Shown here: piece by piece, positions 13,456-28,399 of the stretch
Position numbering within the stretch: position 1 is the first letter of the stretch
Layout of the letters: the number at the start of each line of letters is the position of its first letter
Assembly: GCA_020724425.1 (NCBI GenBank)
Contig: DYGY01000004.1
Span: forward strand, 1-64,000
Length of the DNA: 64,000 nucleotides
Direction of reading: 5' to 3'
Origin: Thermaerobacter marianensis
GTDB lineage: Bacteria > Bacillota > Sulfobacillia > DVGY01
Position numbers and translations under genes: made by a program
The notes under the pieces: model-generated
The model's database searches: none
Seen by the model: only the letters and a program-made list of their open reading frames with translations
Told to the model about the DNA's origin: nothing

Positions 13456-13848
13456 ATGGTTGGTCTGGTGATTGTATCTCATAGTCCAAAGATTGCAGAG
13501 GGTATAAGGGATCTTGCCTTGCAGATGACACCGGCTGGTATACCCCTGGCCTTGGTTGGTGGGCTAAGCACTGGTGAGTTAGGAACTAATCCAGAACAGG
13601 TACTAGAAGCTATTAACCAGGTTTATTCTGATGATGGTGTATTAATTCTCTTTGATCTTGGGAGTGCTTTTATGAGTGCTGAAACAGCCGTTGAGTTCTT
13701 GCCTGAAGACAAGCAAGAACGTATATATATTTCTGGTGCAGCATTGGTTGAAGGAGCTATCACTGCAGCTGTTGAGATTAGTCTGGGTAAACCCTTAGAG
13801 GAGATTAACCAGAGTTTAGAGTCTTTGAACGTGGGTAAGATTGGTTAG
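13456..13848 (+). CDS. dhaM: PTS-dependent dihydroxyacetone kinase phosphotransferase DhaM (EIIA-Man-like)
   Basis: VIVSHSPKIAEGIRDL, ILFDLGSAFMSAE; follows dhaL. Confidence 0.93.
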   Translation: MVGLVIVSHSPKIAEGIRDLALQMTPAGIPLALVGGLSTGELGTNPEQVLEAINQVYSDDGVLILFDLGSAFMSAETAVEFLPEDKQERIYISGAALVEGAITAAVEISLGKPLEEINQSLESLNVGKIG

Positions 13849-13864
13849 CGTGGAGGCTAGAGTT

Positions 13865-14134
13865 GTGGAAATCGAAAAAACAGTAGTCGTTAAAGGTGAA
13901 AATGGGTTGCATGCGCGACCTGCAGCAAAATTTGTGAAGAAAGCCAATGGCTTTAACTCGACAATCACCCTAATGGTCAATGATAAGCAGGGTAATGGTA
14001 AGAGCATGATTGGTGTTCTAGCGCTCAATGCTCGTAATGGTTCTTCTCTGGTAATTAAGGCTACTGGACCAGATGCCAGAGAGGCTGTTGACATACTGTC
14101 CAAGTATGTCGAGAGTGGATTTAAGGAGATTTAG
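13865..14134 (+). CDS. ptsH: HPr phosphocarrier protein
   Basis: GLHARPAAKFVKKA (His15 site), GKSMIGVLAL (Ser46 site). GTG at 13865 preceded by GGAGG; track ORF starts at 13841. Confidence 0.93.
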   Translation: MEIEKTVVVKGENGLHARPAAKFVKKANGFNSTITLMVNDKQGNGKSMIGVLALNARNGSSLVIKATGPDAREAVDILSKYVESGFKEI

Positions 14135-14145
14135 GAGGAACCAAC

Positions 14146-15876
14146 ATGTTGAAAGGAGTTAGGGTAGCTTCAGGATTTGCTATTGGAGAAGCGATAGTTC
14201 TTAGAGAAATCAATTTTACCAAGGTCGTTAAGTCATTAAATGAGGGACAGCTAGAAGCTGAGATGGAGAGATTCAAAGAAGCTGTTGATAAGGCAAAACA
14301 GCAGCTGCAGCAGATAGAGAATAATTTTCGTAGAGATGTGGGTGAGGAACAGGCAGCTATTTTTGTTGCTCAACAGATGTTTTTAGAGGATCCAGCTCTG
14401 GTTGATGAGGTAATCGAACAGATTAGAACTCGCAAGGTTAATGCAGAACAGATTGTTCAGGAACTATTTGAGGCCTATGCAGAAACCTTTGAGCAAATGG
14501 AAGATATGTACTTAAGGGAACGTGCCAGTGATATTCGTGATGTTGGTAGTCGTCTCCTTGCTAATCTCCAGGGTGTCACAGCGACACTAACTGCTATCAA
14601 AGAAGAATCCATTGTGATTGCTAGGGAGTTAACTCCATCCACTTTAGCTCAGTTGGATAGACAGAAAGTTATTGGTATTGCCATAGAGGAAGGGGGTTCC
14701 ACCTCTCATACAGCCATTCTGGCTAGAACTTTGGGTATACCGACAGTCATTGGAATCAGAAACCTTATCGATATGGTTTCTAGTGGCGATAAGGTCATCA
14801 TCGATGGTCAGGCAGGGGTTATTTATCTTAATCCTGATGAAGATATGCTGATTAGTTATAGGGTTAAAGAGGCTACATGGAAAAAGGAACAGCAGATATT
14901 AGAGGGGTTGAAGGATTTGCCTTCAGTAACTCAAGATGGGTATGAAGTTCAGTTAATGGCTAATATTGGTATGCCCGCTGATGTTCCTTTGGCTAATTTC
15001 TGGAACGCTGCTGGTGTAGGATTGTTCAGGACCGAGTTTTTGTATCTAGACCGTGATAGTTTTCCTAATGAAGAGGAACAGTTTCAAGCATATAAGGTTG
15101 TAGCTGCAGAGATGCAGGGAAAGCCTGTAATTATCCGTACCCTTGATATTGGTGGAGATAAGGAGTTAGCATATTTCCCTTTACCTAAGGAGGATAATCC
15201 TTTTCTAGGATTAAGGGCCATTCGTCTTTCATTAAAGCAGCAAGATATATTCAAGACACAATTAAGAGCTATTCTTAGGGCTAGTAGTTATGGAAATATA
15301 AAGATCATGTACCCTATGGTTAGTAGTGTTAAGGAGCTACTTGAGGCAAATCATTTGCTAGCAGAAGCTAAGCGAGAGTTGGAAAAAGAGGGATATACCT
15401 TTAGTAAGGATATAGAAGTAGGGATTATGGTGGAAACACCGGCAGTAGCTATGTTGGCAGATATATTTGCTCAAGAAGTAGATTTTTTCTCCATTGGAAC
15501 TAATGATTTGGTTCAATATACCTTAGCGGTTGATCGGTTGAATCAGGATATTGCTGTTCTTTACGATCACTATCATCCGGCGGTTCTTAGAATGATTAAG
15601 ATGGTTGTAGATGCAGCCCACAAGGAAGGTATCTGGGCAGGGATTTGTGGAGAAATGGCAGCTGATGTTCTCTGTACCCCCGTATTTCTAGGAATGGAAA
15701 TAGATGAGTTGTCTATGAATGCTATCGCTCTGCCTGAGATTAAGAGGGTGGTAGGTTCTCTGACTCAATCTAATAGTAAAGAGGTTATGACAAAAACACT
15801 AGCTTTAAGAACAGGTAGTGAGGTCAAAGAATATCTGCAAGAGGTATATCAAGAACACGGAGGTGGTTCTGTATGA
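14146..15876 (+). CDS. ptsI: PTS enzyme I (phosphoenolpyruvate-protein phosphotransferase)
   Basis: GGSTSHTAILARTLGIPTVIG, GLFRTEFLYLDR, IRTLDIGGDKELAYF, FFSIGTNDLVQYTLAVDR, GICGEMA. Confidence 0.96.
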   Translation: MLKGVRVASGFAIGEAIVLREINFTKVVKSLNEGQLEAEMERFKEAVDKAKQQLQQIENNFRRDVGEEQAAIFVAQQMFLEDPALVDEVIEQIRTRKVNAEQIVQELFEAYAETFEQMEDMYLRERASDIRDVGSRLLANLQGVTATLTAIKEESIVIARELTPSTLAQLDRQKVIGIAIEEGGSTSHTAILARTLGIPTVIGIRNLIDMVSSGDKVIIDGQAGVIYLNPDEDMLISYRVKEATWKKEQQILEGLKDLPSVTQDGYEVQLMANIGMPADVPLANFWNAAGVGLFRTEFLYLDRDSFPNEEEQFQAYKVVAAEMQGKPVIIRTLDIGGDKELAYFPLPKEDNPFLGLRAIRLSLKQQDIFKTQLRAILRASSYGNIKIMYPMVSSVKELLEANHLLAEAKRELEKEGYTFSKDIEVGIMVETPAVAMLADIFAQEVDFFSIGTNDLVQYTLAVDRLNQDIAVLYDHYHPAVLRMIKMVVDAAHKEGIWAGICGEMAADVLCTPVFLGMEIDELSMNAIALPEIKRVVGSLTQSNSKEVMTKTLALRTGSEVKEYLQEVYQEHGGGSV

Positions 15877-16385
15877 GAATACTAGCCTTGGTGGATCATG
15901 AGTTTGAAGACTTAGAACTTTGGTATCCGGTTCTCAGGTTACAAGAAGAAGAAATAGTTGTGGATTTAGTTGGGGCCAAGGAGAAACAAACATATTACGG
16001 TAAGTATGGTGTACCTGCGGTATCTGATTATTCCTATACAGATGTTGATGCAGAAAATTATGATGGTATTCTGGTACCTGGTGGCTGGGCTCCTGACAAA
16101 CTAAGGCGTTCTCCTGAGGTTATCAGGTTAATACAGGAAATGAATGAAATGAAAAAACCTATTGGGCAGATTTGTCATGCTGGTTGGGTGTTGATTTCTG
16201 CCCAGGTTGTTAAAGGGGTCAAGGTAACCTCTACTCCAGGTATCCGAGATGATTTAGAGAATGCAGGGGCGATCTGGTTTGATAAACCGGTGGTAACTGA
16301 TGGACACATTATTTCAGCTCGTCGACCACCAGATCTGCCCCTGTATATGAAAGAATATCTAAGAGTCCTAGATAGCAACAGGTAG
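15873..16385 (+). CDS. DJ-1/PfpI family protein
   Basis: LVPGGWAPDKLRR..., IGQICHAGWVL nucleophile elbow; 4-nt overlap with ptsI. Confidence 0.9.
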   Translation: MRILALVDHEFEDLELWYPVLRLQEEEIVVDLVGAKEKQTYYGKYGVPAVSDYSYTDVDAENYDGILVPGGWAPDKLRRSPEVIRLIQEMNEMKKPIGQICHAGWVLISAQVVKGVKVTSTPGIRDDLENAGAIWFDKPVVTDGHIISARRPPDLPLYMKEYLRVLDSNR

Positions 16386-16386
16386 G

Positions 16387-17661
16387 GTGGTAGTAGTGGA
16401 ATTGCAACTCAGGCAAAGTCAAGTACAGATAATGTCTCAGGAGATGCAAGAATCTTTGCGTCTCCTTGAGTTGCCCTTGTTGGAATTAAACACTTATCTA
16501 ACGGAGCAGGCCTCAGCAAATCCTCTCCTGGATTTTAGTGAGAGTTATCCTCTGAATAGCCGATACTCACTAGGTGATTGGAAAAGAGAAATCCCTGCTG
16601 AAGAGGGACTCTTGGAATATCTGGATAAACAGTTGGGTTTTTTAGAGGTATCAACAGATATCCAGAAGATAATTAGGTTCCTTATAGGTAGTCTCGATAG
16701 TAGTGGCTACCTTAGGGCGAGTATCAGTGATCTGGCAAAAGACTTACGGGTTAGTCAACAAAGTGTGAATGCAGCTTTAGAAATATTGCAACGGTTTGAT
16801 CCGGCAGGAATCGGTGCCCGTACTCTTGGTGAGTGTCTTTTGTTGCAGCTAGAGAGATTTGGTATCAGGGATGGACTTGCAGTAGCGGTTATTCAGGATC
16901 ATCTATTTGATGTGGCTAATGGTAGTCTTAAGAAAATAGCAAAGGAGAGACAGTGTTCTCTTAAAGAAGTTCAGGATGCTATCAACCTCATTAAATCACT
17001 GAATCCAAGGCCAGGTCAGATCTATGGCTCCTCGCAAGCTCCCTATATATTACCAGATATCTATATACATAGGATTGATGGTGAGTATCTGATTCTTCCA
17101 AATGAAAAGAGTAATTCTTTATTAAATGTAAATAGGGAGTATGTACGTCTTATAGATAATCCTACAACTGATTCGGAGACCAGGAATTATCTAAAACAGA
17201 AATACAGTCAGGCTCTTCATGTCATTAATAATTTGCATAAACGTAATCTGACACTAATAAGTATCGTTGAAGTACTGGTTGAAGAACAAAGACTCTTTTT
17301 TGATGAGGGTATAGACTTAAAACCGCTAACTAGAGAAGTTGTAGCCAAGAGATTAGGTTTACATGAGTCAACAGTTAGCAGAGCTGTTAGGGATAAGTAC
17401 ATATCTACTCCTTATGGTGTTTTCCCACTGGCTTTCTTTTTTTCGTCTACTCTGAGTGGGATTAGTGGAGAGGTCTCATCAATATCTGTAAAGGACCTAC
17501 TAAGAGAGATAGTTGCAGGAGAAGATCCCCTATCACCTTATACAGACAGTGCATTGCAAGAGCTGCTGGCTAAAGAAGGGATAACTATTTCTAGAAGGAC
17601 AGTGGCCAAGTATCGTAATCAGTTAGGTATTCCACCTGTTAAACTACGAATAAGGTATTGA
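16387..17661 (+). CDS. rpoN: RNA polymerase sigma-54 factor
   Basis: N-terminal Gln/Leu-rich region I, core-binding domain (DPAGIGARTLGECLLLQL), C-terminal RpoN box ISRRTVAKYRNQLGIPPVKLR. Confidence 0.95.
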   Translation: MVVVELQLRQSQVQIMSQEMQESLRLLELPLLELNTYLTEQASANPLLDFSESYPLNSRYSLGDWKREIPAEEGLLEYLDKQLGFLEVSTDIQKIIRFLIGSLDSSGYLRASISDLAKDLRVSQQSVNAALEILQRFDPAGIGARTLGECLLLQLERFGIRDGLAVAVIQDHLFDVANGSLKKIAKERQCSLKEVQDAINLIKSLNPRPGQIYGSSQAPYILPDIYIHRIDGEYLILPNEKSNSLLNVNREYVRLIDNPTTDSETRNYLKQKYSQALHVINNLHKRNLTLISIVEVLVEEQRLFFDEGIDLKPLTREVVAKRLGLHESTVSRAVRDKYISTPYGVFPLAFFFSSTLSGISGEVSSISVKDLLREIVAGEDPLSPYTDSALQELLAKEGITISRRTVAKYRNQLGIPPVKLRIRY

Positions 17662-17674
17662 ATGGAGGCAGGAC

Positions 17675-18232
17675 ATGAGTTTAGCGTCTCTTGGCCCGGT
17701 CATAGCGGCTATACGAGAGGAGTCTGAACTGGAACAGGCTATTAATAGTCCAGTTAAGACTATTTTCCTTCTCTCTAGTGATCTGATAAATAGTAAGCGT
17801 GTGGTACAGATGGTTCAGGGAGAAGGAAAACAGATCTTTCTTCATGTTGACCTTGTCAGGGGATTAGGTTCTGATCCAGAGGCCATTAGGTATATCGCTA
17901 GAGAGATTAAACCAGACGGGATAATATCAACAAAGACTCAGGCTGTTATGGCTGCAAAGGTGGAGGGATTACCTAGTATTCAACGTGTTTTTGCTCTAGA
18001 TTCACAAGCATTAGCTAAACTCACAAGAAGTATTTCAGCAGTTGAACCCGATGCTATTGAGATTTTGCCAGGCCTGTTACCAAAAGTAATTATGGACTTG
18101 AAGAAGAAATTTAGTATACCAGTAATCACCGGGGGATTAATCTCTGAAGAGGATGAAGTAGAGATTCTCTTGAAAGTGGGGGCTAGTGGAATATCTACAA
18201 GTTCTTCAAAACTGTGGAATTGGACTAGATAG
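17675..18232 (+). CDS. glpP: Glycerol-3-phosphate responsive antiterminator GlpP
   Basis: FLLSSDLINSKRVVQMVQGEGKQIFLHVDLVRGLGSD...EILPGLLPKVI...PVITGGLI. Confidence 0.92.
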   Translation: MSLASLGPVIAAIREESELEQAINSPVKTIFLLSSDLINSKRVVQMVQGEGKQIFLHVDLVRGLGSDPEAIRYIAREIKPDGIISTKTQAVMAAKVEGLPSIQRVFALDSQALAKLTRSISAVEPDAIEILPGLLPKVIMDLKKKFSIPVITGGLISEEDEVEILLKVGASGISTSSSKLWNWTR

Positions 18233-18244
18233 GCATATCCCGGG

Positions 18245-18270
18245 CCTCTGTGAAGAATTAATCACAGAGG
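18245..18270 (+). terminator. Hairpin after glpP, weak terminator-like
   Basis: CCTCTGTGA-N8-TCACAGAGG followed by TGTTTAGTT. Confidence 0.5.
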
Positions 18271-18421
18271 TGTTTAGTTATTAGAGAGAAGAGTAAGGGT
18301 AATTTCCGAACATATGATGAAAAACATAAAGGATGCTAGAAACAAGCTGGTTCACTACAAAGATCTTAAGTATTTGACGAGTTTAATGTTGTACTCAAAA
18401 TAGTTCGTGACTTAGAATAGG

Positions 18422-18545: not shown

Positions 18546-18561
18546 ACTGGTATAGACAACT
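18546..18561. promoter_or_regulatory. NagR/DasR (GntR-HutC) operator-like site upstream of nagA
   Basis: ACTGGTATAGACAACT compared with the recalled dre-type consensus ACTGGTCTAGACCACT. Confidence 0.7.
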
Positions 18562-18581
18562 AAACAACTAGATGTTATACT
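18553..18581 (+). promoter_or_regulatory. SigA-type promoter of the nag/PTS operon
   Basis: TAGACA (-35, 18553-18558), 17-nt spacer, TATACT (-10, 18576-18581); -35 lies inside the operator-like site. Confidence 0.65.
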
Positions 18582-18597: not shown

Positions 18598-19782
18598 GTG
18601 GGGTGGTCTGGTTTGGGTGATAAGAAGCTAATTGTTGGTGGAACTATAGTGACGGGTTTTGAGGTTATACAGGGTGGTTTTGTGCTCATTGAAGGGCAGA
18701 AGATTGTGGATGCGGGGAGGATTGATCAGCTACCTGATACCGATGCGAGGGTTATCATGGTTCCTAGTGGCTATCTGGTGATGCCGGGATTTATTGATAT
18801 GCATGTGCATGGGGCGCTGGGTGCTGATGTTATGGATGGCAGGGATGCCCTAGAGGTTATTTCAACTGCTTTAGCTGCTGAAGGAGTTACTGGTTTCCTT
18901 CCTACTGTTATGACTGATAGCGAAGAAAAGATTAGCAGAGCTTTGAGTGGTGTTGGTAGTGTGGATGGGGCTGAGGTTCTAGGGATTCATCTGGAGGGTC
19001 CTTTTATTAATAGGGCTAAGGCCGGTGCACAACCGGTTGAGTATATCAGGAAGTATGATAAAGAGCTTTTTAGAGAGTGGCAGATGACAGCTGCCGGGAT
19101 GATTAAACTGATTACTGTAGCTCCAGAGACCGATGTTTCCATGGTGAGGGAATTGGTTTCTGAAGGAGTTATTGTTTCAGCAGGTCATACAGATGCTACA
19201 TATCTTGAGATGATTCAGGCGATTGATCAAGGAGTTAGTCATGTGACTCATCTCTTTAATGGGATGAGGGGGATGCATCATCGGGAACCAGGGATTGTTG
19301 GGGCTTCATTGTTAGATAAAAGGGTTCAGGTTGAGATAATTTATGATGGGATTCATGTACGGGATGAGATGGTAGAACTAGTTTATCGCTTGAAGGGTAG
19401 TGAGGGAATAATCCTAGTTACTGATGGGATGAGGGCTAAGGGGCTTAGTGATGGGGAGTATGAGTTAGCAGGACAAAAGGTGGTTGTTAGAAACAAAGAA
19501 GCAAGGTTAGAATCGGGTGTGCTTGCTGGTAGCACTTTGAGGATGAATGAGGCTGTTAGGAGAGCTAGCTCTTTAGGTGATTTAGCGGATCTAGTACGGA
19601 TGTCATCATTAAATGCAGCTATCAAGTTAGGGATAGAGAAGCGTAAGGGGAGTATTGAGAGAGGCAAGGATGCTGATCTTGTCATTGTGGATTCAGAGTT
19701 TGGGGTCTGGAAGACTTATTGTCGTGGAGATGAGGTATATGATGCAGGTGCTATGGGTAAGTGGTTATCAGGAACTATCTGA
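18598..19782 (+). CDS. nagA: N-acetylglucosamine-6-phosphate deacetylase
   Basis: PGFIDMHVHGALGADVMDG, LGIHLEGPFINRAKAGAQP, SAGHTDA, THLFNGMRGMHHREPG. Start may be the TTG at 18613 behind GGGGTGG. Confidence 0.93.
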   Translation: MGWSGLGDKKLIVGGTIVTGFEVIQGGFVLIEGQKIVDAGRIDQLPDTDARVIMVPSGYLVMPGFIDMHVHGALGADVMDGRDALEVISTALAAEGVTGFLPTVMTDSEEKISRALSGVGSVDGAEVLGIHLEGPFINRAKAGAQPVEYIRKYDKELFREWQMTAAGMIKLITVAPETDVSMVRELVSEGVIVSAGHTDATYLEMIQAIDQGVSHVTHLFNGMRGMHHREPGIVGASLLDKRVQVEIIYDGIHVRDEMVELVYRLKGSEGIILVTDGMRAKGLSDGEYELAGQKVVVRNKEARLESGVLAGSTLRMNEAVRRASSLGDLADLVRMSSLNAAIKLGIEKRKGSIERGKDADLVIVDSEFGVWKTYCRGDEVYDAGAMGKWLSGTI

Positions 19783-20482
19783 GTTGGTTGCTGAACATAT
19801 ATATAGGTCCATAGAAGAGAAGCCAGAGGCTAACTGGGGTCTGGCAACCGGGTCTAGTTTTGTAGGTACCTATAGATTGTTAGTGGAGAAGCATAGGCCT
19901 AGACCATTAGATCTAGAGGGTATTAGGACATTTAATCTTGATGAGTATGTGGGGTTAGATGGTTCCTCTCCGTATAGTTTTCGGTACTTTATGAACAGGT
20001 CTTTATTCTATCCATTGGGGTTGGATTTAGGGCAGACTAATATCCCTAATGGAATGGCCAAGGACTTGGAGCTAGAGTGTAAACGGTATGAAGAAAAAAT
20101 TGAAGCTTCTGGGCGAATAGATTATCAGTTGCTCGGAGTGGGTGTAAATGGCCATATAGGCTTTAATGAGCCGGGGACTGAGTTTAGTAGCAGGACACAT
20201 GTGGCAAGGTTGACTGAGTCAACTAGAAGGGCTAATTCAAGGTTTTTTGGCAGTATTGAGAGTGTCCCCACTCATGCCATTACTATGGGTATAGGTAGCA
20301 TAATGAGGGCTAGGGAGATAATTCTTGTGGTTAGTGGAGATGGGAAAGAAGAGGTTGTGCAACAATTGCTAGGGCATCAGGTTGTAAGCAAAAGATGGCC
20401 AGTTACAATCTTAAAGAAACATCCCAAGGTAACAGTTATTGTAGATGAAAGCCTTGTGTCAGAGAGGGTGGGTGTTGGATGA
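19742..20482 (+). CDS. nagB: Glucosamine-6-phosphate deaminase
   Basis: LATGSSFVGTYRLL, FNLDEYVGLDGSSPYSFRYFMN, GVGVNGHIGFNEPGTEFSSRTHV. ATG at 19742 overlaps the nagA end. Confidence 0.93.
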   Translation: MQVLWVSGYQELSELVAEHIYRSIEEKPEANWGLATGSSFVGTYRLLVEKHRPRPLDLEGIRTFNLDEYVGLDGSSPYSFRYFMNRSLFYPLGLDLGQTNIPNGMAKDLELECKRYEEKIEASGRIDYQLLGVGVNGHIGFNEPGTEFSSRTHVARLTESTRRANSRFFGSIESVPTHAITMGIGSIMRAREIILVVSGDGKEEVVQQLLGHQVVSKRWPVTILKKHPKVTVIVDESLVSERVGVG

Positions 20483-21201
20483 TAAATAAGAGTTCGCCGA
20501 TTCCAATTTACTTTCAATTAGAGGAACTATTAAGAACAGCAGTTGAGAATGGGGAATTGATTCCCGGTCAGTTGATTCCTTCAGAAAGGGAGTTAGCTGA
20601 GAAATATGATATTAGTCGTATGACTGTACGGCAGGCCATTAATAATCTGGTTAATCAGGGTCTTCTAGTGAGGGAACAGGGCAAGGGCACTTTTGTGGCC
20701 GATAAGAAGATTGAGCAACCCTTAATGACTCTTACCAGTTTCTCTGAGGATATGCGGAGCAGGGGTCTTGTACCTGGGACAGAGATTAGGGAGTTTGAGG
20801 TTATTTCGGCATCTATGCGCGAGAGCATGGAGTTACAGATAGAAGAGAGTGAACCTATTTATCGGGTAAGCAGGGTCAGGTTAGCTGATGCAGAGCCGAT
20901 GGCTTATGAGATTCTGTTCTTGCCCAAGAGTATTTTTCCAGAGATCACTGAAGCCACTATTAGCAGCTCTTTCTACAAGTATGTGGAAAAGGAGCTGGGA
21001 ATGAAGATTGAAAGAGCAAGACAGACTTTAGAGCCTGCCTTAGCAACAGACATTGAGAGTGAGTTTCTTAATGTAAAGAAGGGTTCTCCTGTACTACTGA
21101 TGAGGAGAACTAGTTATCTAAGTAATGGTAGGCCGTTTGAGTATGTTAAGTCAGTCTACCGTGGAGATAGATACAAGTTCATCACTGAAATGAAGAGATA
21201 G
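20479..21201 (+). CDS. GntR-family (HutC/UTRA) transcriptional regulator, NagR-like
   Basis: N-terminal wHTH PSERELAEKYDISRMTVRQAINNLVNQGLLVREQGKGTFV plus UTRA domain. Confidence 0.9.
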   Translation: MINKSSPIPIYFQLEELLRTAVENGELIPGQLIPSERELAEKYDISRMTVRQAINNLVNQGLLVREQGKGTFVADKKIEQPLMTLTSFSEDMRSRGLVPGTEIREFEVISASMRESMELQIEESEPIYRVSRVRLADAEPMAYEILFLPKSIFPEITEATISSSFYKYVEKELGMKIERARQTLEPALATDIESEFLNVKKGSPVLLMRRTSYLSNGRPFEYVKSVYRGDRYKFITEMKR

Positions 21202-21211
21202 GTGATAGTTA

Positions 21212-21652
21212 ATGAGGTTCTTAGATGAGAAATTGGTAGAGTTAGGTGCTGTCGTGAAGACCCCTCAAGAAGCAATAAGAAGGGCTGGATTCTTGCTGGT
21301 TCAAGAGGGAATTATCAAAGAGGAATACGTTCTAGCAATGGTTGATAGTTATGAAAAACAGGGACCCTATATTGTTTTAGCTCCTGGTATTGCTATGCCT
21401 CATGCCAGGCCGGAAATGGGGGTTAACTCTCCTGGAGTGTCTCTTGTTCAGTTAGCTACACCTGTTGAGTTTGGTCATTCAAGTAATGACCCGGTTTACC
21501 TGGTAGTGGCTTTAGCTGGATCTACTAGTGAAGAACATGTGGGTATTTTGCAAAGACTGTCTTTGGTGTTAGGTAATCAGGATAAGGTTGATGGATTAAA
21601 AAGCGCAGTGAGCTATAAGGAAATTCAAAAGATAGTGGAGGGATTGGTATGA
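21212..21652 (+). CDS. PTS sugar transporter subunit IIA (UlaC/fructose-mannitol type)
   Basis: YIVLAPGIAMPHARPEMGVNSPGVSLVQL phosphorylation site. Confidence 0.9.
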   Translation: MRFLDEKLVELGAVVKTPQEAIRRAGFLLVQEGIIKEEYVLAMVDSYEKQGPYIVLAPGIAMPHARPEMGVNSPGVSLVQLATPVEFGHSSNDPVYLVVALAGSTSEEHVGILQRLSLVLGNQDKVDGLKSAVSYKEIQKIVEGLV

Positions 21653-21921
21653 AGATACTGGCTGTATGTGGTCTTGGGCAGGGAACAAGTCTAATTTTGA
21701 GGATGAGTATAGAGACAGTCTTAAGTGAAAAGGGAGTGGTAGCTGATGTAGACCATATGGATGTTTCTTTAGCAGCAGGAACAGACGCCGATTACATTGT
21801 TACTAGCAACGAGTTGGCGCAGAACCTGAGGAATCATCGTGCCAAGGTCATCGTGGTAAACAACTACTTTGACAAGAAAGAGGTTGAAACTGCGCTACAG
21901 GAGGTATTTGAAAAACTCTAA
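21649..21921 (+). CDS. PTS sugar transporter subunit IIB (ascorbate/Ula type)
   Basis: MKILAVCGLGQGTSLILRMSIE, N-terminal phosphocysteine motif. Confidence 0.88.
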   Translation: MKILAVCGLGQGTSLILRMSIETVLSEKGVVADVDHMDVSLAAGTDADYIVTSNELAQNLRNHRAKVIVVNNYFDKKEVETALQEVFEKL

Positions 21922-21936
21922 AAGGGGAGAGAGCAA

Positions 21937-23232
21937 ATGCAATTTGTCGAGTGGTTAGCTACTAATGTTTTTGGGCAACCGGCAATTCTACTTGGATTGA
22001 TTGTTCTGTTAGGTCTTGTTTTGCAGAGAAAAACCTTTAGCCAGACAATGAGTGGAACTCTTAAAGCTGTAATTGGCTTTATCATTATTGGTGCTGGTGC
22101 TGGAATTATTGTAAACTCTCTTTTGATCTTCCAACCCATGTGGAAAGAGGTATTTAACCTTGAAACTCAGGCACTAGGGAGCTTTATGGGTCAAGAGGGT
22201 TTTATGGCCAAGTATGGAGGAGCGGTTGCTCTGGCTATGACTCTAGGTTTTCTTCTGAATGTGTTGCTTGCTAGAATTACGCCTCTTAAATATATCTATC
22301 TGACTGGACATATGATGTTCTGGACAGCAGTTATTTTTGCAGGTGTTGTTGTAACGTCTGTCGGTGAAGTTGATACTCTTAAGTTAGCATTGTTTCTAGC
22401 AGTGATCTTAGGTATATACTGGACGGTTCAGCCGGCCTTAACCCAACCTTTTATGAGAAAAATTATGGGTCATGATGAGATTGCTTTAGGTCACACTTCT
22501 GCTTCTGCCGCCTTATTAGGTGCTCTGATGGGCTATCTGTTTGGAAATAAGGAGCAGGATTCAGAGAAGTTACAGGTACCTAAAGGTTTGGAGTTCTTGC
22601 GTGATTCTAATGTAGTCACTGCTTTAACGATGGGTATTCTGTTCCTGGTAGGTGCAATTATCTTGTCTACTAAGGATACACCCGGGGCTCAGGAATTAAT
22701 AGCCATGTCTGGGGACCAGAGCTTTTTGATGTATTCTTTAATGCAGGCCGTTACCTTTGCAGCAGGTATTGCTGTAGTCTTGATGGGTGTTCGTATGTTT
22801 GTTGGTGAGATGGTTCCTGCTTTCCGCGGCATTGCCACCAAGTTAGTACCTGGAGCAAGACCAGCACTTGATGTTCCGGTTATCTATCCGGCTGCACCTA
22901 ATGCAGTTATTCTAGGTTTCCTTGGTGCTTTTGTTGGTGCCTTGATTTGGCTTGTCGTACTGGGTAATACTGTGGGATATGTCTTTGTACCAACAATGAT
23001 TGTATTGTTCTTCCATGGTGCTGCTGCTGGTGTTTTCGGTAATGTCACTGGTGGTGTTAGAGGAGCTGTGTTAGGTGGTTTTATGACAGCCACTTTGGTA
23101 GCTTGGGGTCAGTACTTCATGGTTACCTTCTTGATTCATGACACAATTCCGGATACTGCCATGTGGGCTGCAGACTCGGATATGTTTATTCTTGGACCAC
23201 TTGTAAGTCTGCTAGCCAAGTTATTCTTCTAA
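21937..23232 (+). CDS. PTS sugar transporter subunit IIC (ascorbate/UlaA type)
   Basis: Multi-TM; LLGLVLQRKTFSQTMSGTLKAVIGFIIIGAGAGIIV typical of the UlaA/SgaT family. Confidence 0.92.
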   Translation: MQFVEWLATNVFGQPAILLGLIVLLGLVLQRKTFSQTMSGTLKAVIGFIIIGAGAGIIVNSLLIFQPMWKEVFNLETQALGSFMGQEGFMAKYGGAVALAMTLGFLLNVLLARITPLKYIYLTGHMMFWTAVIFAGVVVTSVGEVDTLKLALFLAVILGIYWTVQPALTQPFMRKIMGHDEIALGHTSASAALLGALMGYLFGNKEQDSEKLQVPKGLEFLRDSNVVTALTMGILFLVGAIILSTKDTPGAQELIAMSGDQSFLMYSLMQAVTFAAGIAVVLMGVRMFVGEMVPAFRGIATKLVPGARPALDVPVIYPAAPNAVILGFLGAFVGALIWLVVLGNTVGYVFVPTMIVLFFHGAAAGVFGNVTGGVRGAVLGGFMTATLVAWGQYFMVTFLIHDTIPDTAMWAADSDMFILGPLVSLLAKLFF

Positions 23233-23240
23233 AATTGTAA

Positions 23241-23270
23241 GGAAGAAAGGGCTTTTTGGCCCTTTCTTCC
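23241..23270 (+). promoter_or_regulatory. Intercistronic stem-loop between IIC and the lactonase gene
   Basis: GGAAGAAAGGGC-TTTTTG-GCCCTTTCTTCC, 12-bp perfect stem without a T-tail. Confidence 0.6.
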
Positions 23271-23287
23271 AACCATTTGGCGGTGGG

Positions 23288-24280
23288 ATGATGAGTTTTG
23301 TTAGAACTATGCTGGCTGATATTGATCCTTCAGAGTTAGGTTTCACCTATACTCATGAGCACCTAGTTTGCAAACCACCATACTGGGTTGAAAAAGGTGA
23401 AGCTGATCTATTGTTAGATAATCCTGAGTTAACAAGGTTAGAGGTCTTAGATTTTAAGGCTCTCGGTGGTGAGTCTATTGTTGATGCGACTGCTGTAGAC
23501 TATGGTCGCAATGTGAAGGCCGTTTATGAAATTGCTATTAGTACCGGGGTTAATATTATTGGAACTGCCGGGTTTAATAAGGGGATTTTATGGTCTGCAA
23601 GGCTTCCTGAAAGAATTAAGGAGTTTGTAGGTAGTTATGATACCTATAATCATTGGATTGAGAGTGCTAGTTTGGATGAGCTTGTTGGTTATATTGTAAA
23701 CGAAGTTACTGAGGGTCTTGAAGCTACCAGTATCAAAGCCGGACAGATTAAATTTGGTACAAGCTATAACTCAATTAAACCGTTGGAGGTTAAGACATTA
23801 AGAGCAGCAGCAAGGGCTCATTTGGAGACTAATGCGCCTCTAACAGCTCATACAGAAGCAGGTACAATGGCTTTGGAGCAGATAGATTTGTTAAAGGCAG
23901 AAGGGATAGATCTTTCTTCTATATCTTTTGGTCATATGGATCGTAACCTTGATCCCTTTTATCATGAGGAGATTGCTAAGACTGGTGCCTATCTCTCTTT
24001 TGATGGTGTTGGTAAGGTGAAGTATGGGCCTGAGAGTGACAGGATAGCTGCAATTATTGATCTGGTGAGGAAGGGGTATGAAGATCAGATACTGATAAGT
24101 GGGGATATGGCCAGAAAATCATACTACAAACACTATGACTATGGGTTGGGTTTTGAGTATATTATCAGCAAATGGATTCCTCGCTTCCTTGTTGAAGCGG
24201 ACAGAGCGGGGTTTGATGGAGAAGTATTGGTGGATAAGTTCTTTAGGGTCAATTCAGCACGGTGTTTATCTTTTAAGTAA
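23288..24280 (+). CDS. Phosphotriesterase-family protein (cog1735 sugar-phosphate lactonase-like)
   Basis: YTHEHLVC (HxH), IKAGQIKFGTSY (Lys), AHTEAGTMA, FGHMDRNLD, LISGDMARKSYYKHYDYG. Confidence 0.88.
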   Translation: MMSFVRTMLADIDPSELGFTYTHEHLVCKPPYWVEKGEADLLLDNPELTRLEVLDFKALGGESIVDATAVDYGRNVKAVYEIAISTGVNIIGTAGFNKGILWSARLPERIKEFVGSYDTYNHWIESASLDELVGYIVNEVTEGLEATSIKAGQIKFGTSYNSIKPLEVKTLRAAARAHLETNAPLTAHTEAGTMALEQIDLLKAEGIDLSSISFGHMDRNLDPFYHEEIAKTGAYLSFDGVGKVKYGPESDRIAAIIDLVRKGYEDQILISGDMARKSYYKHYDYGLGFEYIISKWIPRFLVEADRAGFDGEVLVDKFFRVNSARCLSFK

Positions 24281-24292
24281 GGGGAGAGAGAA

Positions 24293-25021
24293 TTGCTATA
24301 TCAACAGAAGACTTCTGAAGATATTAAGAACAAATCTAAAGATTCCCCAGTCATTCTACCTGTTGGTGCTGTTGAGGCTCATGGACCTCATTTACCTTTA
24401 GGGACTGATAGTATGCTGGCTGAAAAACTGGCAATTATGCTGGCAAGAAGGGTAGGAGGGGTAGTCTTACCCGTATTACCGTATGGTCAGGTTTGGAGTC
24501 TTAAGGATTTCCCTGGAAGTATTAGTATCAGTGATAACTCGTTGATTAACATGGTCTATGATATCGGGTTGGGTGTATTTGAACAGGGGTTCAAATACTA
24601 TGTCATTGTTAATGGCCATTTGGGGAACAGTCTGGCACTTAATCAAACTGCCAGACTGCTATATAGGGACTGTCCTGACCTAAAGGTCTATGTTTTTACC
24701 TATCCTGGACTTGAAGAAATTGCATCTAGAGTGTGTGAGAGTCCTCGTTTGAGTAGTTCATTTTTTCATGCTGAGGAAATAGAGACATCTTTGATGTTGT
24801 ATTTATGTGCACAGGAAGTTGATATGTCTAGAGCGATTAGGGATATACCGGTAATACCTGAGCAGATAGCATATACTCCGATTCCTTGGAGTAAGTTCTC
24901 AAAGACTGCTGTTTTAGGTGACGCCACTCTAGCGAGCAGGGAAAAGGGAGAACAGATCGCTTTATACTGTCTTGACAGGATGGTCGAGATATTAGAGGGT
25001 GACAAAGATGAAGAAGATTGA
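24293..25021 (+). CDS. Creatininase-family amidohydrolase
   Basis: ILPVGAVEAHGPHLPLGTDS, VNGHLGNSLAL, FHAEEIETSLML. Confidence 0.9.
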   Translation: MLYQQKTSEDIKNKSKDSPVILPVGAVEAHGPHLPLGTDSMLAEKLAIMLARRVGGVVLPVLPYGQVWSLKDFPGSISISDNSLINMVYDIGLGVFEQGFKYYVIVNGHLGNSLALNQTARLLYRDCPDLKVYVFTYPGLEEIASRVCESPRLSSSFFHAEEIETSLMLYLCAQEVDMSRAIRDIPVIPEQIAYTPIPWSKFSKTAVLGDATLASREKGEQIALYCLDRMVEILEGDKDEED

Positions 25022-25703
25022 TGGTTTTCTTGTCTTTAACTTCCTAGTTAAGGATAAGGAAAATCTTGAGGAGATATTGGCTGTAACAGATTGTGTCATC
25101 CCCGGGATTGTAGCGGCTGATTTTAGTGATATCAATCTGGCTGTACAAACAATTGATGAGCTAAAGAGCCTTAGTGAAATAGTTAGTGTGGGTCTAGGTG
25201 ATGATGGTAATCCGGCTCTTTGGGAGAAGGTTCTATTGATAGCTGAACAGGCTAATCCCGGTCATCTAAACCAGCCCTTTGAGAAAAGCAGTTATGTAAA
25301 GGGGTATCTTGAGGGTAAGGGGATGCCACAGCTAGTTAATGCTTTAGTTAATCCCACAGGGAGACCAGGTCTTTTAAGGCTACCCTCGGGTATGGAGATG
25401 GAAGTTGAGAGTTTTTTAGACCTTATCAAGATTATTGGCATTGAGTCAGTAAAACTGATGCCTGCTACAGGTCATCTAGATGAGTTAAGATATCTTGCTT
25501 ACGCAGCAGCGGAAAGAGGTATTAGGGGGATAGAGCCGGCTGGAGGTATTAATGAAAGTAACGTTAGGGAGATTGTGGCTATTGGCAAGGGAAGTGGTAT
25601 CGAGTTTTTTATGCCCCATATATTTGGTTCTGTATTAGATAGGGATACAGGAAGAACTAATCCAGTTAAGGTAGGCAATATTCTTGAAGCAGTGGGGGGT
25701 TAG
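25008..25703 (+). CDS. KDGP aldolase family protein (DgaF-like)
   Basis: VSVGLGDDGNP, ALVNPTGRPGLLRLPSG, ESVKLMPATGHLDELRYLAYAAAERGIRGIEPAGGI. MKKIDGFLVF start at 25008; overlaps the creatininase gene. Confidence 0.82.
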   Translation: MKKIDGFLVFNFLVKDKENLEEILAVTDCVIPGIVAADFSDINLAVQTIDELKSLSEIVSVGLGDDGNPALWEKVLLIAEQANPGHLNQPFEKSSYVKGYLEGKGMPQLVNALVNPTGRPGLLRLPSGMEMEVESFLDLIKIIGIESVKLMPATGHLDELRYLAYAAAERGIRGIEPAGGINESNVREIVAIGKGSGIEFFMPHIFGSVLDRDTGRTNPVKVGNILEAVGG

Positions 25704-25706
25704 GTT

Positions 25707-26441
25707 ATGATTACAGAATATCTTGAAGGCATTAAAGAACTGTTGGATAGACTACAGAAGACAGAGATGAATCAATTAGAGTCGGCAGCAGGGATGGTTG
25801 CTTCGAGTCTGGCTGATGGAGGTATTGTCCATGTTTTTGGTTCAGGTCATTCTCATATTTTAGCTGAGGAGGTTTTCTTTAGGTCAGGAGGAATGGTACC
25901 TGTCAGACCTATTCTAAAGGAAGAACTTATGCTGCATAAGGGAGCTATTAGTTCATCCATGTTAGAAAGACAGAATGACTATGCAAAAGAGTTCATGAAG
26001 ACTGAGGATATCCGGTCAGAAGATGTGGTTTTTGTTATTTCGACTTCAGGGCGCAATCCGGTACCTGTAGATGTGGCTATTCTAGCTAAGGATAAGGGTG
26101 CTTATGTAATCGGGATTACCTCTTTAGAGTATAGCAATAGTCAGCCATCAAGACATAAGAGTGGTAGACATTTGCATGAGGTAGTAGACTTGGTTTTGGA
26201 CAATAAGGCACCTGAAGGTGATGCAATCCTGAGTCATAAGGATATTCCCGTGAGGTTTGGACCTAGTTCAACGATTATGGGAGCTGCCATTTTAAACAGT
26301 ATCCTTGCTCAAGCAGGATGTCTTTTAAAGGAGCAGGGACTTGAACCACCTATCTTTATCAGTGGTAATGTTGAGGGTGCTGATGAGCATAATCAAAAGC
26401 TAATAGAAAAATACCAAGGGAGAATAGAGTATTTATCCTGA
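25707..26441 (+). CDS. SIS-domain phosphosugar-binding protein (UPF0309-like)
   Basis: VHVFGSGHSHILAEEVFFRSGG, VVFVISTSGRNPVPVDVA. Confidence 0.87.
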   Translation: MITEYLEGIKELLDRLQKTEMNQLESAAGMVASSLADGGIVHVFGSGHSHILAEEVFFRSGGMVPVRPILKEELMLHKGAISSSMLERQNDYAKEFMKTEDIRSEDVVFVISTSGRNPVPVDVAILAKDKGAYVIGITSLEYSNSQPSRHKSGRHLHEVVDLVLDNKAPEGDAILSHKDIPVRFGPSSTIMGAAILNSILAQAGCLLKEQGLEPPIFISGNVEGADEHNQKLIEKYQGRIEYLS

Positions 26442-26456
26442 GTTGGGGGAGAGGTT

Positions 26457-26714
26457 ATGGTTAAGGTGCAGGTAGAGATACAACTGAAATCAGGTTTGCA
26501 TGCAAGACCGACTACTAGGCTTGTCCAGGAAGCCATGAAATATACCAGTGAGATTACCCTTGTTAAGGGTGAACGTTCTGTTAATGCTAAGAGCATGATG
26601 AGTGTGCTCAGTCTTGGAGCTACTAAGGGAGACATCATTGAACTAGAAGTATCAGGAGAAGATGAGGACCAGGCTAAAAATGCGATATTGGATATTCTCA
26701 AGAGTGAAGAGTAG
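26457..26714 (+). CDS. HPr family phosphocarrier protein (second copy)
   Basis: SGLHARPTTRLVQEA, NAKSMMSVLSLGA. Confidence 0.92.
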   Translation: MVKVQVEIQLKSGLHARPTTRLVQEAMKYTSEITLVKGERSVNAKSMMSVLSLGATKGDIIELEVSGEDEDQAKNAILDILKSEE

Positions 26715-26722
26715 GTGGTTTA

Positions 26723-28399
26723 ATGATCTTAGAAGGAACAGGAGTATCATCAGGTATTTCTATGGGGAAAGCATTGGTGCTAGAGGATGAGAATATAGCT
26801 ATCTCCAAAAGGGGTAGGGAACCTGTAGAAGAGATAGCCAGGTTTAAAGATGCTCTAGGGTTAGCCAAGGAGCAGTTAAACACCTTGAAAGAGAAAGTAG
26901 CGGAGGAACAAAGAGGTATCCTTGAAGCCCAGGTAATGATGCTAGAGGATCCTCTATTGCTTAACCAGGTAGAGTCAGGCATTAGGGAGCAGTCTGTTTC
27001 TGCTGAATTTGCGGTAGAACAGGTAATGGACTCCTTTATTACGCTGTTTGAAGGTATGACTGATGAATACATGAAAGAGCGTTCTCTAGATGTAATAGAT
27101 TTAAAGAAGAGGTTGATAAAAAACCTTATCGGATTGGTTTCTTCATTAAACATACTTCCTGATGATGTCATTATTGTTGCAGATGATCTAACTCCTTCGC
27201 ATACAGCGGAAATGGATCGAGAAAAGGTGTTGGGGTTTGTACTTTTTAGAGGGGGTAAGACATCGCATACAGCCATAATGGCAAGATCTCTGCAAATTCC
27301 CGCAGTTGTTGGAGTTAGTGGTGAGATAATGACTGGTGATTTCCTAGCTATAGATGGTGCTTCAGGAGTTATTTACGTTAACCCTGATGAAGAAACCATT
27401 GAAATTATGAAAGAGAGAAGGAAAGCTATACAAGAAAGAAAGCTTCATTTGGAGAAGCTTAAGGGAGTCTCAACAGAGACCTTGGATGGAAAAAGAGTTG
27501 AGCTTGTTGCCAATATAGGTAGTATAGAGGATCTAGAATATGTGGTTAAGAATGATGCTGAAGGTATCGGCCTTTTCAGGACAGAGTTCTTATTTATGAA
27601 TAGAGATACCGCTCCTGATGAGGAAGAACAGTATAAGGTATATAAAGAGATACTAAAGACAATGGCTGGTAAGCCAGTAGTTGTTAGGACGTTGGATATT
27701 GGTGGGGATAAGGATATAAGCTATCTTGACTTGCCCAAAGAAATGAATCCGTTTTTGGGATACAGGGGTATTCGCCTCTGTTTAGGGGAAACAGACCTGT
27801 TTAAAACCCAGTTGAGAGCTCTTCTAAGATCTAGTATCTATGGTAACCTGAAGATTATGTACCCAATGATAGCTTCTTTAACTGAATTACAAAAGGCAAA
27901 TGGAATCCTTAAAGAGGTAAGAGAGGAGTTAAGCCTTCAGGGCCTTCCTTTTGGTGAGGTTGAAGTGGGGATTATGATTGAGACTCCTGCTGCCGCCTTG
28001 ATTTCGGATGTATTAGCCCGAGAAGTTGACTTCTTCAGTATTGGTACTAATGATTTGACCCAATATACCCTAGCAGTGGATCGATTGAATGAAAGGATTA
28101 CTTCTCTTTATGATTCCTTTCATCCCGCGGTTCTCTCACTAGTTGAAACTACCATCAAGAATGGTCATGCTAACGGTATTTGGGTAGGGATGTGTGGTGA
28201 GGCAGCTGGTGATAGAAGGATGATCCCTATTCTCCTGGCCATGGGTCTAGATGAGTTTAGTATGAATCCTTCAGACATTTTGCCGGCTAGAGAGTTGATT
28301 AGAAGCTTAAAGAGGGATGAGTTAGAGAAGCTGTTAGTGAAGATAAGGGGTCTTAGTACGGGAGAGGAAGTGCGGAAGCTTATTGATGGGTTGCATTAG
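26723..28399 (+). CDS. ptsI: PTS enzyme I (second copy)
   Basis: RGGKTSHTAIMARSLQIPAVVG, GLFRTEFLFMNRDTAP, VRTLDIGGDKDISYL, FFSIGTNDLTQYTLAVDR. Confidence 0.95.
   Translation: MILEGTGVSSGISMGKALVLEDENIAISKRGREPVEEIARFKDALGLAKEQLNTLKEKVAEEQRGILEAQVMMLEDPLLLNQVESGIREQSVSAEFAVEQVMDSFITLFEGMTDEYMKERSLDVIDLKKRLIKNLIGLVSSLNILPDDVIIVADDLTPSHTAEMDREKVLGFVLFRGGKTSHTAIMARSLQIPAVVGVSGEIMTGDFLAIDGASGVIYVNPDEETIEIMKERRKAIQERKLHLEKLKGVSTETLDGKRVELVANIGSIEDLEYVVKNDAEGIGLFRTEFLFMNRDTAPDEEEQYKVYKEILKTMAGKPVVVRTLDIGGDKDISYLDLPKEMNPFLGYRGIRLCLGETDLFKTQLRALLRSSIYGNLKIMYPMIASLTELQKANGILKEVREELSLQGLPFGEVEVGIMIETPAAALISDVLAREVDFFSIGTNDLTQYTLAVDRLNERITSLYDSFHPAVLSLVETTIKNGHANGIWVGMCGEAAGDRRMIPILLAMGLDEFSMNPSDILPARELIRSLKRDELEKLLVKIRGLSTGEEVRKLIDGLH

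Follow-up and report, generated by a model that had tools for sequence, protein, structure and literature searches.

A NagR-type operon of Thermaerobacter marianensis joining nagA and nagB to a candidate pathway for an amino-sugar-derived phospho-lactone

The stretch analysed here (the window) comprises 64,000 nucleotides of Thermaerobacter marianensis (assembly GCA_020724425.1, contig DYGY01000004.1, positions 1 to 64,000) and carries, at 18598-28399, an operon in which the N-acetylglucosamine genes nagA and nagB are joined to a Ula-type phosphotransferase system (PTS), a phosphotriesterase-fold (PTE) putative lactonase, a creatininase-family protein, a KDGP aldolase and a SIS protein. The operon probably encodes a NagR-controlled pathway for an amino-sugar-derived phospho-lactone. 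The best explanation of the island as a whole, to which we give somewhat less than even credence, is a single operon of the NagR type for uptake and breakdown of a lactone or aldonate derived from an N-acetylhexosamine, while the exact substrate class and order of steps set out below are put forward tentatively. The amino-sugar link, which had been proposed from the letters of this DNA alone (hereafter the sequence-only reading), is strengthened by a NagR-type operator, repeated linkage to nagA and nagB, and a NagS-like pocket in the SIS protein.

All twelve genes listed in that reading were confirmed by family searches; they are intact and co-directional on the forward strand with intergenic gaps of -53 to +55 nt, and form one operon in the order nagA-nagB-GntR/UTRA-IIA-IIB-IIC-PTE-creatininase-aldolase-SIS-HPr-EI (Table 1). 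The predicted operator in front of nagA, ACTGGTATAGACAACT, agrees at 11 of 14 positions with the NagR operator 5'-GTGGTCTAGACCAC-3' (PMC4333415). Its core, GGT[AC]TAGACAACT, is found at a single place in the 64-kb window, the operon promoter, and the whole site matches what we take to be the DasR consensus at 14 of 16 positions (2 mismatches). A total of 22 core sites were found in 2.81 Mb of fetched loci, where arithmetic gives about 0.7 by chance; the loci were collected around the operon family, so the count speaks for a consistent position rather than for genome-wide enrichment. Where a core has an island homologue beginning no more than 400 nt downstream, that gene is always nagA, nagB, GntR or a cassette-starting IIA (L104, L206, L207, L216, L219); downstream of the remaining sites no island homologue begins within that distance. 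For instance, the operator heads GntR-IIA-IIB-IIC-PTE-creatininase-SIS-NagA-NagB in Evansella (L104), and in L216 and L219 it has divergent nag genes on one side and the cassette on the other. The window GntR, which adjoins nagA-nagB, is 65% identical to the Evansella GntR heading the same cassette.

The nagAB-nagR/nagP regulon of Bacillus subtilis shares the nagA-nagB-GntR order and a -35-overlapping operator (PMC4333415, PMC3648570); the NagR operators there overlap the -35 of nagA and nagP (PMC3648570), and the effectors are glucosamine-6-phosphate (GlcN-6P) and N-acetylglucosamine-6-phosphate (GlcNAc-6P) (PMC4333415, PMC3648570). However, the B. subtilis operon lacks the Ula-type PTS, lactonase, creatininase, aldolase and SIS genes. 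In the window, a repressor of the NagR/DasR kind would bind 18546-18561 and be released by GlcNAc-6P or GlcN-6P. A dre site has also been predicted for ptsH of Bacillus thuringiensis (PMC6141813), a possible clue to the presence of HPr and EI genes in the window operon.

That this combination of genes is special to the window was not supported: Listeria, Planococcus, Evansella, Paenibacillus and other genera have it too, and the arrangement must be called common. A PTE scan of named genomes returned 80 loci, and most Bacilli loci keep the order IIA-IIB-IIC-PTE-creatininase-(aldolase)-SIS, with PTEs 60-67% and IICs about 70-75% identical. Among 64 parsed operons, creatininase and SIS were each present in 58 and the aldolase, which is optional, in 26; these counts come from automatic open reading frame calls and are slight undercounts, and tblastn was used for high-GC relatives. 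Two Bacilli loci (L206 and L207) carry nagA-nagB-GntR-IIA-IIB-IIC-PTE-creatininase-SIS as in the window, without the aldolase and the HPr/EI tail. Listeria monocytogenes keeps the same order behind a BglG-type regulator (regulator-IIA-IIB-IIC-PTE-creatininase-KDGP aldolase-SIS), with a PTE 99.1% identical to PDB 3pnz. Unlike the window, it has no attached nagA/nagB/GntR or HPr/EI, and a PRD regulator replaces GntR; presumably, the PTE alone of this operon has been assayed. The core cassette is also present in Virgibacillus and many other Bacilli, and in Alicyclobacillus dauci PTE-creatininase-KDGP aldolase occurs with an FGGY kinase and an adjoining ABC transporter, with no PTS. In Virgibacillus halotolerans (L085 1069-5443) the cassette is preceded by AgaS, NagA-like, LacD and PfkB genes, a GalNAc-type operon.

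The closest characterised relative of the window SIS protein is Streptomyces NagS, which dehydrates GlcNAc-6P; NagA takes the acetyl group off the product, leaving an enamine that turns into an imine, and 6-phosphogluconate also binds in the NagS pocket (PMC12680351). In alignments with relatives of solved structure, on which the residue comparisons here rest, ten of the 11 ligand or catalytic positions of NagS are identical in the window protein, the exception being the main-chain contact at position 65 (Ser for Ala). Residues H53, S54, R64, S91, E94, S119, S121, D179 and N228 are identical in it and in nearly all of 58 relatives, and the catalytic and sugar-contacting side chains are kept in 58/58 cassette SIS proteins, save one Ser54 to Ala change. 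Like the window system, the Streptomyces pair combines the SIS fold and the same ligand and catalytic residues with a partnership with NagA on a GlcNAc-6P derivative; however, it serves a toxicity/sensing pathway in Streptomycetaceae, and no cluster with PTS, lactonase, creatininase and aldolase has been reported there (PMC12680351).

The SIS protein belongs to the nag system. In a sample of 400 Bacilli genomes drawn evenly, 37 encoded this SIS, and the 33 contexts fetched divide into 15 with PTE and creatininase, 13 with NagA (12 also with NagB) without PTE or creatininase, and five with neither; the sample broke the rule that SIS always accompanies PTE and creatininase. The linkage recurs on plasmids, as nagE-nagA-nagB-GntR-SIS in Planococcus lenghuensis and Priestia and as NagB-II-NagA-SIS in Rhizobium; Microvirga, Nitratireductor and Martelella have NagB-like-SIS-NagA-like.

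SIS pockets that depart from NagS at positions 65, 91 and 228 were seen in Deinococcus, Persicobacter, Spirosoma, Haliscomenobacter and a Chloroflexi metagenome-assembled genome (228 is kept in Spirosoma), in 5/5 cases in operons in which oxidoreductases are present and creatininase is absent. These operons bear on a second explanation, in which a nitrogen-free aldonolactone would be imported, phosphorylated and opened by the PTE, after which SIS would dehydrate the product and the aldolase would cleave it, with nagAB and the NagR site present since both sugars co-occur. The pairing of PTE and SIS with oxidoreductases and no amidohydrolase in the first four genera, with a kinase in three and Eda in one, is in its favor. 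However, those SIS proteins are the ones with deviant pockets, whereas cassette SIS proteins match NagS, whose binding requires the N-acetyl group (PMC12680351). Moreover, this explanation, which we regard as quite unlikely for the window, leaves the invariant creatininase gene unaccounted for, and both the linkage to nag genes and the NagR-type sites have arisen in several different arrangements. The SDR-FAD oxidoreductase-PTE-SIS operon itself recurs in Deinococcota, Bacteroidota and Chloroflexi (L186 5422-11452, L187, L190, L198, L136), with a kinase in most and Eda in Deinococcus; it is probably a non-amino-sugar sister pathway, of which SIS may be the dehydratase.

The window PTE is 61% identical to PDB 3pnz from Listeria, which we take to be the lactonase Lmo2620, acting presumably on D-lyxono- and L-ribono-1,4-lactone-5-phosphate. 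The metal ligands H22, H24, K154, H187, H215 and D272 are all conserved, as are K242, K244, R275 and Y278, which we assume to bind the distal phosphate in Lmo2620; all ten are invariant in 63/63 PTEs, which supports the phosphorylated lactone suggested by the sequence-only reading. Its names "lactonase" and "KDGP aldolase" stand at the level of Pfam families and are family-based; the window PTE, creatininase and aldolase each score below their NCBIfam equivalog cut-offs. No functional study of the Listeria cassette genes or of cog1735 lactonases was found in the open-access literature.

The creatininase-family protein keeps E28, H30, D39, H109 and E164, and its NGHYEN motif reads NGHLGN, the Glu being replaced by Gly111, which is conserved among relatives. 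Because this Glu is missing and the creatininase equivalog score is 129.6 bits against a cut-off of 235, the protein likely targets another small amide. The aldolase conserves the catalytic-type Lys152 in a K-x-M-P motif and scores 151.7 bits against the DgaF equivalog NF047796 (cut-off 300), and it falls within the Pfam family. In a related operon (G063, PTS-creatininase-PTE-Eda-HPr) its place is taken by Eda, the 2-keto-3-deoxy-6-phosphogluconate (KDPG) aldolase of an unrelated family, and Eda also stands in the matching place in Deinococcus (ABC-kinase-SDR-FAD oxidoreductase-PTE-Eda-SIS), without another recognised dehydratase. Such replacement makes the end point put forward earlier, pyruvate and glyceraldehyde-3-phosphate, plausible. 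Eda is present in every aldolase-less cassette genome tested; being near-universal, it is weak evidence, and complementarity between DgaF and Eda was dropped as support.

The DgaF homology of the aldolase also raises a route of the Salmonella Dga type, in which the PTS would yield an aldonate-6-phosphate, the creatininase-family protein, a plausible N-deacetylase, would deacetylate it, DgaE encoded elsewhere would deaminate it and DgaF would cleave the product. Two PTE loci without creatininase and SIS (L116, L123) lie in genomes that carry DgaE. We nevertheless hold this route to be very unlikely here, as DgaE (TIGR01437) had no match in the genome at E<=1e-20 and was present in just 5/22 cassette genomes tested, and SIS would have no step. 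Canonical DgaF genes were also noticed 3-15 kb from LPMO_10 (lytic polysaccharide monooxygenase, LPMO) genes in four Bacilli genomes (G171:C45:19285-22603; G157:C3; G178:C2; G200:C44), and DgaE adjoins DgaF in G157, G164, G178 and G202, which is perhaps a separate oxidised-chitin route.

As for the PTS, the second HPr/EI pair bears out the claim that the operon has its own HPr and EI: full EI genes number exactly two in the genome and both lie in the window (starting at 14146 and 26723), and the two EIs are 46% and the two HPrs 37% identical to each other. The description of the island as insulated holds for this duplication only, since the same core occurs in dozens of named genomes; HPr/EI downstream of SIS is also found in several Paenibacillus loci. 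Just upstream of the island, 13841-18232 encodes the housekeeping HPr-EI, PfpI/DJ-1, RpoN (sigma-54) and a 185-aa protein read as GlpP-like, so that both EI genes of the genome lie less than 15 kb apart.

The IIA, IIB and IIC are of the Ula family and the window IIC passes an ascorbate-named NCBIfam model, which would suit an operon for L-ascorbate or isoascorbate use by the Ula pathway; the cassette EIIC of Bacilli is annotated as an ascorbate transporter. Ascorbate use is scarcely credible here. The equivalents of UlaA His135, His194 and Asp314 are kept in cassette IICs, whereas the two ascorbate-contacting residues Gln139 and Gln195 are replaced by Trp and Thr in 59/59 (Trp129 and Thr187 in the window), because of which ascorbate is an unlikely IIC substrate. 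Family searches found no UlaD, UlaE or UlaF homologue among the 12 operon genes, nor between the PTS and EI genes, and control is of the NagR type; the sequence-only reading, which had called ascorbate unlikely, is supported. Elsewhere, Ula-type IIA-IIB-IIC is followed by SIS alone, just two functions, in Carnobacterium, Lacticaseibacillus and Enterococcus raffinosus (L192, L194, L200).

Taken together, a PTE pointing to a phosphorylated lactone, a SIS pocket, creatininase and NagA pointing to an N-acylated hexose-6-phosphate, an aldolase pointing to a 2-keto-3-deoxy acid phosphate, and NagR control lead to an N-acetylhexosaminolactone or -aldonate as the candidate substrate. In the proposed scheme, EI, HPr, IIA, IIB and the UlaA-like IIC would import the sugar and phosphorylate O6. 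SIS, like NagS, would take H-2 and O-3 off the 2-acetamido sugar-6-phosphate in its lactone form, giving a 2,3-unsaturated furanose (1,4-)lactone, which the PTE would open to the acid. The creatininase-family enzyme (or NagA) would then remove the N-acyl group, and the resulting enamine would become an imine and, with water, KDPG and ammonia, after which the DgaF-type aldolase or housekeeping Eda would split KDPG to pyruvate and glyceraldehyde-3-phosphate; NagA and NagB would drain accompanying GlcNAc-6P. The pathway would replace the pyridoxal phosphate (PLP) ammonia-lyase DgaE, which the genome lacks. The data support the operon itself, the operator motif, the linkage to the regulon, the pocket of the SIS protein, the phospho-lactonase residues, an IIC not made for ascorbate and the recurrence of KDPG aldolases; everything after import, including substrate identity and the SIS, PTE and creatininase steps and their order, is what we infer.

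Several observations weigh against this scheme. Some operons pair SIS with NagA/NagB only, others with just a Ula-type PTS; they are left unexplained by a lactone-to-KDPG route and suggest that SIS yields or handles GlcNAc-6P itself there. Conversely, PTE-creatininase-aldolase operons without SIS exist, so another dehydratase must be assumed in them. The presumed substrates of Lmo2620 are pentonolactone phosphates, not amino-sugar lactones. LPMO is an obvious source of an N-acetylglucosamine aldonate; however, genomes with the cassette carry its genes no more often than others (2/19 vs 47/381) and none was found in the T. marianensis genome, and LPMO co-occurrence was therefore dropped as support for an oxidised-chitin substrate. 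Finally, non-streptomycete SIS homologues assayed for GlcNAc-6P dehydration showed no activity or a negligible one (PMC12680351), which makes NagS chemistry for the cassette SIS an extrapolation.

The nag-SIS operons would be explained better by a cyclised muramic acid substrate (spore-cortex muramic delta-lactam or N-acetylmuramic acid lactone), since SIS feeds NagA/NagB in many operons without PTE or creatininase. In that case, the creatininase-family protein and PTE would open the 6-phosphate lactam or lactone, SIS would act as a MurQ-like etherase to give lactate and GlcNAc-6P or GlcN-6P, NagA and NagB would follow, and the aldolase would be accessory. A lactonase and a cyclic amidohydrolase suit a lactone or lactam, SIS is related to MurQ (PMC12680351), a GH3 glycosidase adjoins SIS in some nag-SIS operons (L222, L229; by sequence reading alone), and many hosts are spore formers. 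We consider this origin unlikely, however, because MurQ is commoner, not rarer, in SIS genomes (30/37 vs 196/363, kinship ignored), which also led us to reject SIS as a MurQ substitute. Furthermore, cassettes occur in Listeria and Planococcus, which we take to be non-spore-formers, the KDPG-type aldolase would be left without a role, and the PTE keeps residues binding a sugar-lactone phosphate.

Coordinates of the operon and its promoter region are collected in Table 1. The nagB start is probably 19730 or 19742 rather than the mechanical open reading frame start at 19655. Upstream, a terminator-like hairpin (18244-18271) closes the preceding gene and is followed by an inverted repeat, the promoter-like site and nagA; the promoter call is a consensus match only, and the number of such sites in the region equals chance expectation. 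Both arms of the repeat, which sits upstream of the operon promoter, occur nowhere else in the window, and it may be either a hairpin with a regulatory role or the remnant of an insertion. Elsewhere in the window, 5292-5391 matches the Rfam family group-II-D1D4-3 (group II intron) at 39 bits (cut-off 32).

Table 1. Features of the operon and its upstream region (window coordinates).
Feature	Position	Strand	Evidence or remark
Near-perfect inverted repeat, 39 nt, identical 18-nt arms, 3-nt loop	18423..18461		z = -5.7
NagR/DasR-type dre operator (predicted), ACTGGTATAGACAACT	18546..18561	+	overlaps -35 hexamer at 18553
Sigma-70-type promoter-like site, TAGACA-17-TATACT with TG	18553..18581	+	17 nt before nagA start
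nagA, N-acetylglucosamine-6-phosphate deacetylase	18598..19782	+	TIGR00221, 373.7 bits (cut-off 225.65)
nagB, glucosamine-6-phosphate deaminase	19730..20482	+	TIGR00502, 262 bits (cut-off 236.9)
GntR/HutC (UTRA) repressor, NagR-like by position and operator	20479..21201	+	GntR and UTRA domains
PTS EIIA, fructose/mannitol type, Ula-like	21212..21652	+	PF00359 (PTS_EIIA_2)
PTS EIIB, UlaB-like	21649..21921	+	PF02302 (PTS_IIB); PRK09548
PTS EIIC, UlaA/GAT family (EIIC-GAT)	21937..23232	+	family match; Trp129 and Thr187
cog1735 PTE-fold lactonase (predicted)	23288..24280	+	PF02126, over cut-off
Creatininase-family metallo-amidohydrolase (predicted)	24293..25021	+	PF02633, 200.8 bits, over cut-off
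KDGP (DgaF-like) aldolase, divergent subfamily	24999..25703	+	PF07071, 166 bits, over cut-off
SIS protein, PRK02947/NagS superfamily	25707..26441	+	PRK02947, over cut-off
HPr, second copy; His and Ser46-type sites present	26457..26714	+	TIGR01003, over cut-off
EI, second of two in genome	26723..28399	+	TIGR01417, over cut-off

The route proposed for the window would parallel two known amino-sugar acid pathways, the Pseudoalteromonas Ong (PMC9537276) and Salmonella Dga (PMC9529869) pathways. The Dga D-glucosaminate pathway likewise involves PTS phosphorylation, a KDPG intermediate and a DgaF-type aldolase yielding pyruvate and glyceraldehyde-3-phosphate; however, it uses the DgaABCD PTS and a PLP ammonia-lyase and has no lactonase, creatininase or SIS, and the cassette aldolase is well below the DgaF equivalog cut-off. 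The Ong oxidative-chitin (GlcNAc1A) pathway also converts N-acetylglucosaminate to 2-keto-3-deoxygluconate-6-phosphate, but by way of an SSS symporter, the D-aminoacylase OngB, the PLP deaminase OngC and a kinase acting last, with no PTS, phospho-lactone or SIS step. The arrangement of the window genes is not new, and the route appears undescribed, as had been suggested before; nothing found in the open-access literature contradicts this, absence there being weak evidence.

Placement in a NagR-type N-acetylglucosamine regulon gives a testable function to a wide set of mis-named genes. Moreover, it puts the 3pnz-type lactonase into a physiological context and hints at a role of NagS-like SIS proteins outside Streptomyces. 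It is conceivable, with the odds against it, that these genes represent a widespread cofactor-free route of Gram-positive bacteria, in which NagS-like SIS, PTE-fold and creatininase-fold enzymes turn a phosphorylated N-acetylhexosaminolactone (of oxidised chitin or peptidoglycan type) into KDPG without a PLP ammonia-lyase. If this chemistry is true, it would be a second, PLP-free way for acids of N-acetylated amino sugars to enter the Entner-Doudoroff pathway.

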